Shown: piece after piece, positions 5,489 to 48,230 of the stretch
Position numbering within the stretch: position 1 is the first letter of the stretch
How the letters are laid out: every line of letters begins with the position of its first letter
Origin: a virus
Direction: 5' to 3' (one strand)
DNA: 48,230 nt
IMG/VR virus record: IMGVR_UViG_3300022602_000140
Coordinates: 1 to 48,230 of that record
Notes under the pieces: generated by a model
What the model saw: only the letters and a program-made list of their open reading frames with translations
Database searches by the model: none
Told to the model about the DNA's origin: nothing
Position numbers and translations under genes: made by a program

Positions 5489-5923
5489 TTAAACTAAAAT
5501 TAAATTTAATTGAGCTGCTCCCCAAACATAAGCTGCTGTATTGATATCAGGATTTACACTCCAAGAAGCATAATCAGCTCCTGAAATAGACAAATTACCG
5601 TCTGCTAATTTATTGTAAGTATTTTCTACTGGTGTAATAGGTTCTGTAGAACCAGACACGGGCAGTGGTGGGACAATAGGTTCTGTAGAACCAGACACGG
5701 GCAGTGGTGGGACAATAGGTTCTGTAGAACCAGACACGGGCAGTGGTGGGACAATAGGTTCTGTAGAACCAGACACGGGCAGTGGTGGGACAATAGTCTC
5801 ATTTAAAGTGTAATAGAAAGTAGCTATATCGATAAGATTATCGTTGATGCTAATCATATTAAATGCTGTTGCTTGTTTTTGGGTTCCATTTACCCAAAGA
5901 GAAATTGGTTGAATTATTTTCAT
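5489..5923 (-). CDS. Appendage protein with four 13-residue Pro-rich repeats
   Basis: 144 residues. The N-terminal part (MKIIQPISLWVNGTQKQATA) resembles small phage decoration or tail-tip proteins but was not matched. Residues about 44-95 hold four copies of PIVPPLPVSGSTE. The C-terminal part ends SGADYASWSVNPDINTAAYV followed by WGAAQLNLILV. No signal peptide or membrane helix is present. Strong promoter-like bases lie upstream (5948-5979). It sits between the long fibre gene and the lysis cluster, so a virion surface role is likely. Confidence 0.65.
   Translation of the reverse strand: MKIIQPISLWVNGTQKQATAFNMISINDNLIDIATFYYTLNETIVPPLPVSGSTEPIVPPLPVSGSTEPIVPPLPVSGSTEPIVPPLPVSGSTEPITPVENTYNKLADGNLSISGADYASWSVNPDINTAAYVWGAAQLNLILV
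5640..5795 (-). repeat. Four tandem 39-bp repeats inside a coding region
   Basis: Four head-to-tail copies of a 39-base unit, in frame (13 codons), near identical at DNA level. The last unit changes at its edges where it joins unique sequence. Near-perfect identity suggests recent expansion or active homogenisation by slippage. The encoded Pro-rich linker would lengthen or shorten with copy number. Confidence 0.9.
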
Positions 5924-20346: not shown

Positions 20347-22896
20347 TTACGAAATTATTTCTGGGCCATAAGCCAATAGAGTCAAACCGTTACCGTTTGC
20401 ACGTAAAGGTGTAATACCCATACGAACGTCTGCTGACATTTTGTAACCGTAAGAACCTGGAGCCTGCACCATAAACACGTCCAAGTTACCGATACCGATA
20501 CCCACTTGTGATGGTATAAAGCCTAAGTTTGCACTTGTAGCTGTCGATGGTATGATACCAAACGGTGATTTAACTTGTGCTGTGGTTGGGTCAAATGCTA
20601 CAACCCTGCTACGTTGGTTAAACCTTGTGTGTTTAAAGCCTAATTGGTCTCTGCCGTTATCTTCAGTCCAACGGGTCAACAATGATTGACTTTGTGCAGT
20701 TTGCGATATTAACGCATCTGTAGTTGAGTCAATAACCATCACCGCTTTCTCGTTTTCGAGTTCGTAGTTTTGTTTATTGTAAACCAACTCAGTAGTGATA
20801 ATGTCATTCAACGTAGGGTTGTTAAATGAACCTTGAGCCAAAGCATTGTAATAAAATGCGTATGGGTTGTCAGCGTTACCGTTTAAAGTAAATTGCTGCG
20901 GTGCAGTGCTACCACCATTAGGGTTCGGAGATATACCAGATGTATACACAATAGAACCGTGTGGTACGGCTGAACCTAAAGTGTATAACAAAAAGTCATC
21001 AATGTAAGTACCCATTACGGCAAATGCTTGCGCCCAACCTGTAGACATTTGGTCATATCTTAATTGTGCCATTGTAAGCGGTTGCCATAACATCGGGTTC
21101 ATCCAGAACGGTGTTAAGTTTAACGCAACGGCGGTATCGTTGTAAGTATAATCAGTTGGGTTAACAGGTGCAGTACCCATATATATTGGTGGGTTAGCTG
21201 CAATGTTTGCCCATATCAGGCCAGTATTGTTTTCAGTAGTTTCTGCGCCGAAAATTGGAATTTCATCTTTCCACGAGGTTGTCGGGAATAATTTGAAAAT
21301 AGCCAAATCCAAAAAGTCCATCGCTAATAAATCCGGCGATGCCAAAAAGTTATCAGTTGCGGTCAGCGTGGTGGCTTCCTGCATCCTGTTATCTTTGGTT
21401 AACCAGTTTACACGGTTGCCTGCTAAACGGCTGATGATTTCATCAACTGCATAACCGGGGTTGCTGCGTGAACTTTGACGGTAGTTTTGCAAATTACCTT
21501 CCGCATTCAATATGATGCGGGTCTTGTCGAAAACGCCTTTGTATTTAGGGTCGTTACGCTGTGCGTTCATGTAAGCGGCGTACTCGGCTGGCTCTGTGCC
21601 TTCAACCTTATTTTGTACACGGTTAATTAAGCGTTTACCGCCCTCGTCGGCTTTTAACTGCGACATTGTTTTTGGCAATCTGTCAATCATGGCTATGGAT
21701 GTTTGGAAGTGTGGTTTTGCCGCTAACTTAACTTTGTCGGCTTTTAATTGGTCAACTGTTTTAACTTTAATGCGGTTAGCTGATAAACCGTCTTTTTCCT
21801 TTTTGCCTTTCATGTCATCGGCATCTTCATCATCCGCCTCCATTTCAGAACACATTTCAACGGCTTCTTCGGCTTTTTTCTTTTTAGCCTCAAACTCGTC
21901 TTTATCTTCTTCAGTAGCGTCAGGTTTTTCAGCTTTTTCTTTGGCTTCGAGAGCGTCTGCCATTAAAGTAGATGCCCTTAATTTAGCTGCGGAAAGTTTT
22001 TCTTCTTTCTCTTTTTTCTTAGCTTCTTCTTCGGCTTTTTCTTTATCCTCGTCTTTTGCTTTCATTGTACCAACCTTTTCCATAAGTTTTTCAAACAAAC
22101 GGTCTTCGGCAGTTTTGCTACCTTCAACATCGTAAAGGTCTTTAAGGGTTGGTGCTGCCAAAATATTTTGCTTTGGCGGTGCAATGGTATCGTTACCAAA
22201 TAAATAATCAAACAAAGCAGAAAGTCCAGCTTTCTTTTTTGCTGTTTCGGCCTCTACTGCGCCCTTAATTGGTTCAGGTAAATCTGCCGCTGTTCTACCA
22301 CTTGCAAGAGTTGTAGGGGTTTTTTCAGTAGCTTTATCTACTACTTCATCATTTTCTTTTGGTTCGGTTGCCATGATATTACTACTTAGTGTTGTTATTT
22401 GATTATAAATTTCATTTAGATTAACTTCTTCAAAACAATGGGCTGCTAATGCTGTTTCTTTGCCCACCGCATCCATATTTGATGGGATGCTCACCATGCT
22501 AACTTCGTAAAGGTCAAAAGATGTGCAAATGCCTAATCCATCTTTGTCTAAAAACGGCTCATCAACCATGTCGCCGCTTGCGTTCCTTACTTTTTTACCT
22601 GTAGTTTTCAGTTCTTTAAACCCGCCTATTGAGCAGGCTGTTAAAAAACCTTTATCCCACATTTCGCCGTATTCCTGACTTTCTTTCGTTATCTTATGAA
22701 ATACGGGTACTCCAGTCCACTGTCCATTGTCGTATTGTATATCGCTCATTTTGCCTAATGGCGGGGCGTTCCAATCATGCTGACAAAGGATAACAGGATT
22801 TTTTAAATACCTGTCGAACTTTATTACTTCGTTAGGTATTTTAAACCCCTGGTCATTTGGGGTTGCAGTGCTAAATATGATGCGCTTTCCTAACAT
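20347..22896 (-). CDS. Fused prohead protease, scaffold and major capsid protein
   Basis: 849 residues in one frame. Residues 1-170 are an HK97-type prohead (U35-like) protease: CQHDWNAPPLG (His about 39), FLTACSIGGFKELK (Ser about 89) and YEVSMVSIPSNMDA (about 130). Residues about 175-390 are charged and helical, with a Lys/Glu-rich coil (DKEKAEEEAKKKEKEEKLSA) and an Asp/Glu cluster (MEADDEDADDMKGKKEKDG), as in scaffold (delta) domains. From about residue 400 the rest is capsid-like, with ATDNFLASPDLLAMDFLDLA, PTTSWKDEIPIFGAE and a C-terminal beta-rich end. Two AUG-led internal starts exist (ATG near residue 174, MATEPKENDE), so a separate scaffold-capsid product is possible. Normally these are two or three genes. 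Confidence 0.8.
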   Translation of the reverse strand: MLGKRIIFSTATPNDQGFKIPNEVIKFDRYLKNPVILCQHDWNAPPLGKMSDIQYDNGQWTGVPVFHKITKESQEYGEMWDKGFLTACSIGGFKELKTTGKKVRNASGDMVDEPFLDKDGLGICTSFDLYEVSMVSIPSNMDAVGKETALAAHCFEEVNLNEIYNQITTLSSNIMATEPKENDEVVDKATEKTPTTLASGRTAADLPEPIKGAVEAETAKKKAGLSALFDYLFGNDTIAPPKQNILAAPTLKDLYDVEGSKTAEDRLFEKLMEKVGTMKAKDEDKEKAEEEAKKKEKEEKLSAAKLRASTLMADALEAKEKAEKPDATEEDKDEFEAKKKKAEEAVEMCSEMEADDEDADDMKGKKEKDGLSANRIKVKTVDQLKADKVKLAAKPHFQTSIAMIDRLPKTMSQLKADEGGKRLINRVQNKVEGTEPAEYAAYMNAQRNDPKYKGVFDKTRIILNAEGNLQNYRQSSRSNPGYAVDEIISRLAGNRVNWLTKDNRMQEATTLTATDNFLASPDLLAMDFLDLAIFKLFPTTSWKDEIPIFGAETTENNTGLIWANIAANPPIYMGTAPVNPTDYTYNDTAVALNLTPFWMNPMLWQPLTMAQLRYDQMSTGWAQAFAVMGTYIDDFLLYTLGSAVPHGSIVYTSGISPNPNGGSTAPQQFTLNGNADNPYAFYYNALAQGSFNNPTLNDIITTELVYNKQNYELENEKAVMVIDSTTDALISQTAQSQSLLTRWTEDNGRDQLGFKHTRFNQRSRVVAFDPTTAQVKSPFGIIPSTATSANLGFIPSQVGIGIGNLDVFMVQAPGSYGYKMSADVRMGITPLRANGNGLTLLAYGPEIIS

Positions 22897-22988: not shown

Positions 22989-23207
22989 ATGGATGAACAC
23001 GATGTGTTAGCCGATTTAAGGTCGTACGTAAAACCATATACGTACATAAAAATGTCTCAAAGCCATTTTAGTAACACAATTACAAGGCACGAGGCTGGTC
23101 TTTTAAAACCAAAAACATTTGCAAAGTTTTTAGAACGCTTTGGCTACTTTAAGGAAAATGGGGTTTTTGTTAAGAGGATTGAGGTTTGTAAAGTTAAAAA
23201 ACATTGA
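22989..23207 (+). CDS. Small basic protein on the plus-strand island
   Basis: 72 residues, basic, helical (MSQSHFSNTITRHEAGLLKP; KTFAKFLERFGYFKENGVFV). It runs opposite to the surrounding head genes, starting 92 bases from the capsid fusion start. No strong promoter was found in the A/T-rich gap. Size and charge would suit a small nucleic-acid-binding regulator, but no HTH pattern is convincing. Its stop overlaps the next start. Confidence 0.55.
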   Translation: MDEHDVLADLRSYVKPYTYIKMSQSHFSNTITRHEAGLLKPKTFAKFLERFGYFKENGVFVKRIEVCKVKKH

Positions 23208-23392
23208 TAATCCAACTCAACCCACAAATAGAAGTAACAACACCTTTAGGTAAAGGGTGGGCGTTTTTTATCATCGATTACGACCTAAATACAAATACAA
23301 TTTGGATAGTAAGATTAGATGATGGTATTGTAAAACACTTTGACAGTAACGATATTAAGATAACACCTAATTTTATGTTAGGGCAACGATAG
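23204..23392 (+). CDS. Small SH3-like beta protein typical of Bacteroidota phages
   Basis: 62 residues starting at a TTG (23204-23206) that overlaps the previous TGA. The pattern IQLNPQIEVTTPLGKGWAFF, then IDYDLNTNTIWIVRLDDG, resembles short all-beta proteins often found in Bacteroidota phages (PxIxVxTPxGxGxA...W.V.LDD.G). Function unknown. Its last codons form the 5' strand of the outer stem of the tRNA-like RNA at 23387-23469. Confidence 0.65.
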   Translation: MIIQLNPQIEVTTPLGKGWAFFIIDYDLNTNTIWIVRLDDGIVKHFDSNDIKITPNFMLGQR

Positions 23393-23469
23393 GGGGATAG
23401 TATGCATGTTCGACCCATGCTTTAGAAATAAATCGTCTAATGGTAGGACGCTATCGCAAACCCCAATCG
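23387..23469 (+). ncRNA. tRNA-like cloverleaf RNA with permuted ends
   Basis: The sequence folds into a four-arm cloverleaf with tRNA rules, but its ends lie in the anticodon arm. In order: anticodon-stem 3' strand GATAG (23396-23400); 3-base variable region; T arm (5-bp stem 23404-23408/23416-23420, loop TTCGACC); 4-bp hairpin TTTA/TAAA capped by GAAA (23421-23432) in place of the acceptor stem; T33 and C34 as positions 8-9; 4-bp D stem (35-38/46-49) with loop AATGGTA; G50 as position 26; anticodon-stem 5' strand CTATC (51-55). Spacing matches tRNA at every junction. An outer helix of GGGG/CCCC and CGAT/ATCG (23387-23395 with 23461-23469, one A-A mismatch) extends it. The tertiary partners T8-A14, A15-T48, G18G19-T55C56 are all present. 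No CCA end exists, so it cannot be a normal tRNA. Function unknown; I recognise no published family. Confidence 0.55.
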
Positions 23470-23474
23470 ATAAA

Positions 23475-23576
23475 ATATGTTAGGGCAAAAGTGAAAATGA
23501 CAACCCCTGCTCTATAATCCATCGGGGATAGTATTCATGGTTGTAAAAAGTATAAATCCTATCTTTGGCGATAGGT
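23475..23576 (+). other. Partial duplicate of the tRNA-like region plus a hairpin
   Basis: TATGTTAGGGCAA (about 23476-23488) repeats the bases at 23374-23386, just before the RNA, and GGGGATAGTATTCATGG (23524-23540) repeats GGGGATAGTATGCATG at 23393-23408 with one or two changes. A 38-base insertion separates them here. A 6-bp hairpin CCTATC/GATAGG follows (23558-23563/23570-23575) without a T run. The T and D arms are missing, so this looks like a decayed or different member of the same element. Confidence 0.35.
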
Positions 23577-23585
23577 TGCGTATCA

Positions 23586-23639
23586 ATGAAGAAAGCAGAA
23601 AAGTCCATGCTGTTTAGCCATGGCAGGCCTGCCAATTAA
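23586..23639 (+). CDS. Possible 17-residue peptide
   Basis: MKKAEKSMLFSHGRPAN, ending 3 bases into the convergent gene at 23636. Its last half contains a 14-bp perfect palindrome TGGCAGGCCTGCCA (23621-23634), which could instead be a regulatory or terminating structure. Coding support is weak: only a start, a basic beginning and a clean stop. Confidence 0.2.
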   Translation: MKKAEKSMLFSHGRPAN

Positions 23640-24190
23640 CTCACCGGGGGCATAGGATTAAAGGGTGGATTACCTACCTGTTCAATATATTCTAAAACAT
23701 CGCTACTTTCAACTATCAATTGCGTGCTACTATCAAATGCAGTAGTATAAAACCCAATTTTATAGCCCATAATTAAACCATCATGGTTTAACGCATCAGC
23801 TGTAGTAACGCCTGATAATGTGAATTGCAAGCCGTATGTATTATACGCTGATAACATTTTAGATGTATTCCATTGCGCCAATGTGAAATGTTGCCTTATT
23901 GTATCAATCGGAGTATCTAACAAATCGGTCGAATAACCTGTTTCATCATCACCATAAGCATCTGGTTCGTAATTATAAGAATTAAAAGCAAAATCCCATT
24001 CCATTTGAGTTAATCCCCCAGGATATACTTTGCTATCTGGCCCGTCTAACAAATCGAGCAAAACAAGAGGCATCGTATAATCTAACAACTTTGTATTTTT
24101 AAAGTCTGTTTTGAGTATAACAGTCCCACCATTGCCAATAAACAATGATTTTACTTCCGTTAATACCGCATCGATTATTTCGCCTACCAT
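23636..24190 (-). CDS. Head-completion or tail-terminator-type protein
   Basis: 184 residues from the ATG at 24190 (MVGEIIDAVLTEVKSLFIGN). An upstream ATG in frame at 24223 is less likely because the preceding gene ends at 24184 and overlaps only the inner start. An N-terminal helix is followed by beta strands (GGTVILKTDFKNTKLLDYTM; LVLLDLLDGPD). The layout of one helix plus strands, and its position between gpG-like genes and the capsid, suit a tail-terminator or stopper protein. Family not recognised. Confidence 0.55.
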   Translation of the reverse strand: MVGEIIDAVLTEVKSLFIGNGGTVILKTDFKNTKLLDYTMPLVLLDLLDGPDSKVYPGGLTQMEWDFAFNSYNYEPDAYGDDETGYSTDLLDTPIDTIRQHFTLAQWNTSKMLSAYNTYGLQFTLSGVTTADALNHDGLIMGYKIGFYTTAFDSSTQLIVESSDVLEYIEQVGNPPFNPMPPVS

Positions 24191-24285
24191 GATATATTTT
24201 TTACAAGTTCGATTATCATACAACCAATTTTAAAGGCAAAAACGCCGCCGAGTAGGATTGCAAAAAATGTGTTTAAGGATTTCAT
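24184..24285 (-). CDS. 33-residue membrane peptide
   Basis: It starts MKSLNTFFAILLGGVFAFKI and continues GCMIIELVKNISW. One hydrophobic helix. ATGA overlap with the upstream stop (24282-24285), and a 7-base overlap (ATGGTAG) with the downstream start, which fixes the start of the next gene. Unusual among head genes. Function unknown. Confidence 0.5.
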   Translation of the reverse strand: MKSLNTFFAILLGGVFAFKIGCMIIELVKNISW

Positions 24286-40881: not shown

Positions 40882-41765
40882 ATTTGGCTAAGTATTTCTT
40901 TGATAATTTGACCGTTGTATTCGGTTTTGGTTAAGTTCAAAAACTCAAAAGTGGTCATTTTATCATCCAATGATATACCATGTGATTTAACAAACATCAT
41001 ACGCCCACTTTCACAGCTACCCGTTAAATGATGATGCCAGTCGAAAAATGATTTGTTAGGGTATTTAACATCCTTTTTAAATAGCTTTATAAATTCTGCC
41101 TTGCGCTCACCAAAAGATAGGCTTGCAAAATATTTATCATTCACCGATTGTAAGGCACCCTCTTTGGTTTCACCGTGCGCAAATAAATTACCCGATTTCG
41201 CGACATACAATTTTTCAGTTGTGTAATCATCTCGTATGACCGAAACTTTAGCTATGTTACCGACTATTGATAAAAAAATACAAGGTATTTCGTCAATGTA
41301 ATAAACCGGTTTGCCATCAAACGATTTAAAAGAAGCTATTTTTTTTGTTAAAAACCCCTTCCGATAATCAGTCATAGTAATTACGCCATATCCATCGACA
41401 TCACCATCGGCATCGGCATCGCAACCCCCATCACCATCGCCATAGCCATAGCCATTGCAAGAGCCAGAGCCATAGCAAAAGCCATCGCCATTGCCAGAGC
41501 CATCACCATAGCCATAGCCATAGCCATCGGCATCGCCATCGCCAGATCCATAGCCATAGCCATCACCATAGCCATCGGCATAGCCATAGCCATCGGCATA
41601 GCCATCGCCAGAGCCAGAGCCATTGCCAGAGCCAGATCCATAGCCATAGCCATCGGCATCGCCATCGCCAGATCCATAGCCATCGGCATAGCCAGAGCCA
41701 GAGCCAGAGCCATTGCCAGAGCTTGGCGATCCAATCGATAAGAATTGTTTAATTAAAGCTTCCAT
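40878..41765 (-). CDS. Gly/Tyr/Asp-repeat protein with shared C-terminal domain
   Basis: 295 residues. After a short start (MEALIKQFLSIGSPSSG), residues about 14-127 are a low-complexity array of GYGYGSG, GDGDADG and GNGSGSG units. From about residue 130 a folded domain follows: YRKGFLTKKIASFKSFDGKP, then SGNLFAHGETKEGA (about 192) and LTGSCESGRMMF (about 247) and SHGISLDDKMTTFEF. The same motif order (GN..AHG.T, TG.CE.G, GI..D) ends the repeat protein at 47159-48230, which has an unrelated repeat array. The domain is conserved in phages as far as I recall, but the function is not known. The repeat may be a spacer or adhesive segment. Confidence 0.6.
   Translation of the reverse strand: MEALIKQFLSIGSPSSGNGSGSGSGYADGYGSGDGDADGYGYGSGSGNGSGSGDGYADGYGYADGYGDGYGYGSGDGDADGYGYGYGDGSGNGDGFCYGSGSCNGYGYGDGDGGCDADADGDVDGYGVITMTDYRKGFLTKKIASFKSFDGKPVYYIDEIPCIFLSIVGNIAKVSVIRDDYTTEKLYVAKSGNLFAHGETKEGALQSVNDKYFASLSFGERKAEFIKLFKKDVKYPNKSFFDWHHHLTGSCESGRMMFVKSHGISLDDKMTTFEFLNLTKTEYNGQIIKEILSQI
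41383..41726 (-). repeat. Gly-rich coding repeat, mostly hexanucleotide units
   Basis: A stretch of about 344 bases built from GCCATA, GCCATC, GCCAGA, GCCATT-type 6-base units on the plus strand, coding alternate Gly and Tyr/Asp/Ser/Asn/Ala. The unit order is irregular, so it evolved by slippage plus point change. On the same strand a second frame is also open (Met/Ala-rich), a by-product of the 6-base periodicity. Insertion or deletion of 6 bases would keep the frame. Confidence 0.85.
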
Positions 41766-47158: not shown

Positions 47159-48230
47159 TTAAAATGTTACAAGCTCTTTAAATCGCTCAAAACCATAAGC
47201 AGTTGTTTTTTTAAGTAATGGCAATAATTCTGATGCCTTTATTTTATCTTTTGTAATGCCGTTTTGCTGTAACCAGTTTTTAACACCCATTTCACAAGCA
47301 CCGGTAACAGCGCGGTAATGCCCGATAGTTACAACGGTATCAGCGTTTATCGGTTGTTTTTTAAGGCTTTCAGAAATAACCTTATATTTCAAATCTTCCT
47401 TTGCCTTTTTAAGTGTATCGCCGTGTGCATAATTGCCGTTCCCATCCGATACCAAATAAAAGTTTTTAGCGATGTTTAGTTTTTTAACATGCCAAACATT
47501 CCCTTTGTGCATTAAAACTTCGGTAAATATACCGTCAACCATAATATATTTACCATTGTGCCAAATCAATGGTTTAGTAATATAAGGTTTAGTTTTTGCC
47601 GTTAATCCGCTTCCTAAGTCTAAATAGCCGCCCACAGTCGGGTTGAACAAATCAGGGATACTTTTCAGGCCGCTTAGGTTTAAAGAGCCTCCAACAGTCG
47701 GGTTGAACAAATCAGGGATACTTTTCAGGCCGCTTAGGTCTAAATAGCCGCCCACAGTCGGGTTGAACAAATCAGGGATACTTTTCAAGCCGCTTAGGTA
47801 TAAAGAGCCTCCAACAGTCGGGTTGAACAAATCAGGGATACTTTTCAGGCCGCTTAGGTTTAAAGAGCCTCCAACAGTCGGGTTGAACAAATCAGGGATA
47901 CTTTTCAGGCCGCTTAGGTATAAAGAGCCTCCAACAGTCGGTTTGAACAAATCAGGGATACTTTTCAGGCCGCTTAGGTTTAAATAGCCGCCCACAGTCG
48001 GGTTGAACAAATCAGGGATACTTTTCAAGCCGCTTAGGTATAAAGAGCCTCCAACAGTCGGTTTGAACAAATCAGGGATACTTTTCAGGCCGCTTAGGTT
48101 TAAAGAGCCTCCAACAGTCGGGTTGAACAAATCAGGGATACTTTTCAGGCCGCTTAGGTCTAAATAGCCGCCCACAGTCGGGTTGAACAAATCAGGGATA
48201 CTTTTCAAGCCGCTTAGGTATAAAGAGCCT
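47159..48230 (-). CDS. 20-residue-repeat protein with shared C-terminal domain (5' end off the window)
   Basis: At least 357 residues; the gene continues past 48230, because the frame is open to the window end (a TTG at 48208 is not the true start). The N-terminal part is at least ten copies of LSGLKSIPDLFNPTVGGSLN with small changes, a regular strand-turn repeat (L.L.GL..IPDLF.PTVGG) that should form a beta solenoid or leucine-rich-like coil. The C-terminal 150 residues (PLIWHNGKYIMVDGIFTEVL; NGNYAHGDTLKKA; YRAVTGACEMGVKNW; QNGITKDKIKA) match the end of the Gly-repeat protein at 40878-41765 in motif order. Role unknown; the repeat suggests binding or a molecular ruler. Confidence 0.7.
   Translation of the reverse strand, partial: GSLYLSGLKSIPDLFNPTVGGYLDLSGLKSIPDLFNPTVGGSLNLSGLKSIPDLFKPTVGGSLYLSGLKSIPDLFNPTVGGYLNLSGLKSIPDLFKPTVGGSLYLSGLKSIPDLFNPTVGGSLNLSGLKSIPDLFNPTVGGSLYLSGLKSIPDLFNPTVGGYLDLSGLKSIPDLFNPTVGGSLNLSGLKSIPDLFNPTVGGYLDLGSGLTAKTKPYITKPLIWHNGKYIMVDGIFTEVLMHKGNVWHVKKLNIAKNFYLVSDGNGNYAHGDTLKKAKEDLKYKVISESLKKQPINADTVVTIGHYRAVTGACEMGVKNWLQQNGITKDKIKASELLPLLKKTTAYGFERFKELVTF
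47611..48230 (-). repeat. Tandem 60-bp coding repeats
   Basis: Ten consecutive 60-base units (the last cut by the window end) are almost identical; each codes one 20-residue repeat. They differ at a few linked sites: CCCACAG or CCAACAG; TAAATAGCCG or TAAAGAGCCT; GGTTTA, GGTCTA or GGTATA; CAGGCC or CAAGCC; and N or K (GGTTGAAC or GTTTGAAC). The two left-hand variants are always paired, the others combine freely, as expected from unequal exchange between units. Confidence 0.95.

Follow-up and report, generated by a model that had tools for sequence, protein, structure and literature searches.

A candidate phage small RNA of the bacterial Y RNA shape class in a record without a detected Ro60 gene

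The window analyzed here is a stretch of 48,230 nucleotides from the virus record IMGVR_UViG_3300022602_000140, which is 51.9 kb long, classed as linear and possibly incomplete. Two small plus-strand open reading frames (ORFs), at 22989-23207 and 23204-23392, lie upstream of a segment at 23387-23469, plus strand, that is predicted to encode an RNA of 83 nt. The ORF directly upstream (23204-23392, plus strand) codes for 62 aa and is conserved, with 10 relatives in viral contigs at 35-70% identity, and its stop codon TAG (23390-23392) falls within the 5' helix of the RNA. The neighbours at 20347-22896 and 23636-24223, both on the minus strand, carry no capsid assignment in PHROGs or Pfam, which leaves the original prediction's placement of the element beside a capsid gene, and with it the suggestion of a packaging or capsid RNA, unsupported. 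Relatives of the large terminase subunit in Bacteroidia genomes are 25-39% identical, which fits, without proving, that the host of the phage is probably a member of the Bacteroidota. Elsewhere in the window, tandem repeats occur at 5636-5800, 41439-41660 and 47618-48150, in or near minus-strand ORFs, with spacings of 39 bp, a multiple of 6 bp and 60 bp.

Read base by base on the plus strand, the predicted RNA consists of an outer-helix 5' strand (23387-23395; CGAT, A, GGGG), an anticodon-stem strand GATAG (23396-23400), a variable region TAT of 3 nt (23401-23403), a T arm GCATG-TTCGACC-CATGC (23404-23420) whose loop reads as T54 T55 C56 R57 A58 N59 Y60, a closed acceptor hairpin TTTA-GAAA-TAAA (23421-23432), T8 and C9 (23433-23434), a D arm GTCT-AATGGTA-GGAC (23435-23449), G26 (23450), the second anticodon-stem strand CTATC (23451-23455), and the outer-helix 3' strand (23461-23469; CCCC, A, ATCG). 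This reading agrees with the earlier description of a cloverleaf whose ends lie in the anticodon arm, including its junction lengths of 0, 2 and 1 nt, and the bases for the elbow contacts that it listed (T8-A14, A15-T48, G18 G19 and T55 C56) are all present. The outer helix that extends the anticodon arm is likewise there, as 8 bp formed by CGAT (23387-23390) with ATCG (23466-23469) and GGGG (23392-23395) with CCCC (23461-23464), interrupted by an A.A mismatch and with a 5-nt GCAAA bulge before the CCCC strand. Compared with tRNA, the acceptor stem has four A-U pairs instead of seven, and the variable region has 3 nt. The T and D arms together with the closed acceptor support the proposal of a tRNA-elbow mimic lacking a CCA end; because its ends lie at the anticodon site and its acceptor is capped by a tetraloop, such an RNA should be unable to be charged or to read codons.

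This structural pattern is real. A strict descriptor that includes the tRNA invariants matched once in the window versus 0 times in 3,687 dinucleotide shuffles (356 strand-Mb), across which a looser descriptor matched 23 times. When folded on its own, the 85-nt segment 23387-23471 reached -22.4 kcal/mol (z -2.0; 4 of 200 shuffles were equally good), and the minimum-energy fold contains the outer, anticodon, T and D helices and misses the weak 4-bp A-U acceptor hairpin. With flanks the folding energy was unremarkable (z +0.55), and minimum-energy folding was therefore discarded as proof, so that the case rests on the pattern and on the covariance model described below. Annotation tools were silent: ARAGORN predicted zero tRNAs or tmRNAs in the window, an Rfam scan of the window returned nothing relevant, and the Rfam model of YrlA (RF02553) gave no match even at E 10, either in the whole record or in 23380-23480, although this last test is weak, as the Ro60-linked elements introduced next also score no more than 28-47 bits, below the gathering score of 69.

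DNA patterns consisting of a T loop with a D arm close behind were scanned over IMG/VR and GTDB genomes. Many matches were junctions of tandem tRNA genes; in a second group, the T and D arms are separated by a short segment that is self-complementary, and the flanks pair. The scans yielded dozens of elements arranged in the permuted order of the window element, from phages as well as bacteria. A TROVE (Ro60) gene was present in 17 of 40 phage contigs with elements versus 0 of 36 control contigs with tandem tRNAs drawn from the first scan (Fisher p 2.5e-6); the 40 contigs had been chosen by eye from printed sequences before the TROVE result, and the few doubtful members should only dilute the effect. 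The TROVE gene usually adjoins the element, in most cases at a distance of up to about 1.5 kb and with both on one strand, the element lying just upstream in L011, L015, L038, L126, L191, L193, L198, L206, L212, L218, L219, L220, L222 and L223. In bacteria, the element lies roughly 0.8-2.5 kb downstream of the TROVE gene in L155, L175 and L190 and roughly 0.5-0.9 kb upstream of it in L173 and L180. When the Rfam YrlA model was applied permissively, each of the eight Ro60-linked loci tested gave a match, which fell on the same element in six (L126, L191, L193, L198, L173 and L175) and on neighbouring elements in L155 and L190. Based on the TROVE association and these matches, we take the permuted elements, at least the Ro60-linked part of the group, to be bacterial Y RNAs. 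Because all eight loci score below the gathering score, standard Rfam annotation misses their Y RNAs. Previous work suggested Y RNAs beside a Ro60-like protein in Listeria phage CKA15 (PMC12282133) and noted that TROVE proteins can occur in jumbo phages (PMC7824862). Tandem arrays were also seen, with at least three Y-RNA-like elements in a Spirochaetes bacterium (L161, 3135-4131) and up to four model matches beside Ro60 in Flavobacterium sp. 9AF (L238, 992-1948). In Cytophagales-type genomes (L166, L167 and L186), a conserved element runs from a T arm through a D arm to a second T arm and is apparently closed by GGTTGA/TCAACC.

From an alignment (A1) of 19 cores of Ro60-linked loci, with the window excluded from training, we built a covariance model (R1). 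Of these cores 17 are strictly Ro60-linked, the exceptions being L161, whose TROVE match is weak and below the curated cut-off, and L178, in whose genome TROVE was not found. G53-C61, TTC and A58 are invariant in A1, and the T, acceptor and D helices contain many two-sided changes, which indicate consistency rather than independent proof since the members were selected by pattern and closure. The helix at the anticodon position is poorly shared in register (44% paired) because its offset varies. R1 matched the tRNA-like core of the window element end to end (23393-23459, plus strand; 42.0 bits, E 1.6e-14), and it had no other match in the window or elsewhere in the 51.9-kb record. Junctions of real adjacent tRNA genes score 33-46 bits with R1, so the score alone is not specific, and the case also depends on the window having no tRNA genes and on the acceptor being a closed segment of 12 nt. 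The descriptor and R1 together recover the T arm, closed acceptor, D arm and paired ends of the permuted Y RNA module, and the features of an ordinary tRNA gene are missing, as there is neither an ARAGORN call nor an anticodon loop, and the acceptor lacks free ends.

As judged from sequence, the element has the topology seen in the tRNA-like module of bacterial Y RNAs (YrlA), a point that the original prediction missed. This assignment follows from the detection of the element by R1 and from the superposition of the bacterial Y RNA 6CU1 on tRNA by circular permutation (PMC11472068); the tRNA-like module of YrlA has likewise been described as a circularly permuted tRNA (PMC8394870). YrlA (RF02553; PDB 6CU1) and the window element share the permuted tRNA plan, the T, D and acceptor arms, and a closing stem formed by the ends. 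It is thus very probable that the element encodes a phage small RNA belonging to the same shape class as the bacterial Y RNAs (YrlA). Elbow mimicry, the missing CCA end and the location of the ends in the anticodon arm survive from the earlier interpretation; packaging or capsid function lacks support, and a permuted tRNA precursor is disfavoured because a tetraloop closes the acceptor stem, as in the Y RNA relatives.

The closest anatomy is found among Y RNAs of Flavobacteriales. Those of L155 (Chryseobacterium formosense), L176, L178 and L190 (Flavobacterium sp. 9AF) have an acceptor hairpin of 4 bp and 4 nt, the same size as in the window, and those of L155, L176 and L190 share its D arm, GTCTAATGGTAGGAC. 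In a BLAST search over 299 Flavobacteriaceae genomes, the best match was a Y RNA linked to Ro60 in Flavobacterium sp. 9AF (L190), identical at 20 of 20 nt over a stretch that covers T8, C9 and the D arm (23433-23449); the remaining matches carry no such element and were set aside. Unlike the window element, the Flavobacteriales Y RNAs occur in several copies, with 5' strands of the AGAAATACTTCG type and an additional outer helix, and those of L155 and L190 lie within about 1-2.5 kb of Ro60, whereas the window RNA has none beside it. Close nucleotide relatives were not found among phages, nor were close relatives of the flanking proteins, and so the window copy offers neither an empty site nor covariation. 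The relatives of the ORF at 23204-23392 showed no such RNA downstream, and the R1 matches in their records correspond to tRNA genes or junctions.

The element differs from YrlA in what is associated with Ro60. No TROVE gene was detected in the 51.9-kb record, which may be incomplete. A UACUUC-type box, sought within 42 nt upstream of the core and used here as a proxy for the Ro60-binding stem rather than as a demonstrated contact, is present in 25 of 28 Ro60-linked elements (background 8%) and absent from the window. In constrained folds, the Ro60-linked elements have longer, interrupted outer stems, whereas the window RNA has one compact, short outer helix, and it also escapes the Rfam model. 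The window element therefore looks like a retained tRNA-like half without the features that accompany Ro60. Other phage contigs in which TROVE was undetected also have the core (L144, L195, L216, L070 and L052, the last of 379 kb), although these contigs are possibly incomplete, and the same combination of a permuted core and no Ro60 found holds for L140, L029, L049 and L071. Such TROVE-less phage elements differ from the window in their outer stems (AGGATAC...GTATCCT in L140, L144 and L216) and often lie in tRNA-rich regions. Permuted elements with AGGATAC/GTATCCT-like outer strands and no TROVE, several of them paired, occur in L140, L144, L195 and L216, as well as in L197 and L205, and might possibly constitute a distinct Ro60-free family.

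Taken together, the element is likely to be a minimal, Ro60-free tRNA mimic of the Y RNA type that is predicted to bind elbow-recognizing proteins, which we regard as the best explanation overall. An alternative is a full Y RNA that works with a Ro60 coming from the host, or from phage sequence missing from the record, and tethers it to an effector such as PNPase. The Y RNA type of the core found by R1, the side-by-side Ro60 and several Y RNAs of Flavobacterium sp. 9AF, and the possible incompleteness of the record are compatible with this scenario; but the missing box, the outer stem of only 8 bp and the lack of TROVE in the record make it unlikely. Far less probable is an accidental permutation in which the T arm of one decayed tRNA gene is followed by the D arm of the next. 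R1 does match tandem tRNA junctions, and the D arm sequence is found in real phage tRNAs, but the window has no tRNA gene, the flanking strands GATAG and CTATC pair perfectly and continue into the outer helix, the self-complementary acceptor segment of 12 nt is too short for two 7-nt acceptor strands, and the strict descriptor is absent from shuffles. Equally hard to credit is that the segment is coding, or its likeness to tRNA accidental, with a small peptide (ATG at 23406, MFDPCFRNKSSNGRTLSQTPIDKIC) preceded by GGGGATAG: the frame stays open for 25 codons and a similar GGGGATAGTATNCATG box at 23524-23539 runs into a further short ORF, but no homologue was found, the one tblastn match (E 3) being antisense to an annotated gene, and this reading would leave unexplained why the tRNA junctions are exact and why R1 matches. 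Least probable of all is the precursor of a permuted tRNA gene, later matured to a real tRNA, for although the 3' half comes before the 5' half, as it also does in circularly permuted tmRNA and permuted tRNA genes, acceptor processing in those cases yields free CCA ends, whereas here GAAA directly joins the strands of a 4-bp acceptor with no leader, trailer or CCA, the ends run on as an outer helix with no anticodon loop, and the relatives that share this closed hairpin are Y RNAs.

The minimal Y-RNA-type element is flanked by a 13-bp exact direct repeat, TATGTTAGGGCAA, whose left copy (23374-23386, plus strand) abuts the RNA inside the 3' end of the ORF at 23204-23392 and whose right copy (23476-23488, plus strand) lies 6 nt past the RNA. 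Tandem-repeat regions aside, this is the only pair of direct repeats of at least 13 bp at a spacing of at most 150 bp in the window. The left copy forms the 3' end of the ORF, and an identical MLGQ ending could be read from the right copy. As a single case, the pair fits insertion into the end of the ORF with target duplication; alternatively, it looks like a restored gene end. A phage attachment site was considered and rejected, as the record has no tyrosine integrase. Flanking direct repeats were not found in other members as a general trait of the family, in which other long flanking repeats mostly reflect the units of tandem arrays of Y RNAs or tRNAs. Separately, the window segments 23393-23408 (GGGGATAGTATGCATG) and 23524-23539 (GGGGATAGTATTCATG) are alike at 15 of 16 positions, and the latter ends in the ATG of a 26-codon ORF (MVVKSINPIFGDRLRINEESRKVHAV).

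How such an RNA might act can be outlined from the known Y RNAs. Both TruB and DusA use YrlA as a substrate, and PNPase is bound by the tRNA-like domain of this RNA (PMC8394870); Hughes et al. raised the possibility that YrlA acts as a competitive inhibitor of an anticodon nuclease (PMC7790460). The predicted RNA would correspond to the tRNA-like effector module of a Y RNA plus a short closing helix, with the T and D arms forming the tRNA elbow, the tetraloop capping the acceptor side and the ends located at the anticodon position. It may be released from a plus-strand transcript of the two upstream ORFs (22989-23207 and 23204-23392) and then bind host proteins that grip the tRNA elbow, as PNPase, TruB and Dus do in known Y RNAs. 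With no Ro60 of its own, it would be a free competitor or adaptor rather than a Ro60 tether, for example by shielding tRNAs from a host tRNA nuclease or by redirecting an exonuclease. We put this competitor or adaptor mechanism forward tentatively; the decoy role raised in the original prediction comes close to it and is possible. It would be more speculative still, and we think it improbable, that phages in general use the tRNA-like module of Y RNAs alone, with no Ro60 and several unrelated outer stems, to occupy host elbow-binding proteins such as tRNA-cleaving defence nucleases, with the window RNA ranking among the smallest forms and the flanking 13-bp repeat suggesting mobility by insertion.

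The role described for bacterial Y RNAs is that of a Ro60 tether. At its own cut-off, Rfam's model of YrlA fails to detect much of the class. A phage RNA that has the tRNA-mimicking half alone, together with the other phage contigs that have the core and in which Ro60 was not found, would uncouple the two halves from each other, and this separation would make it testable what the tRNA-like module does on its own.
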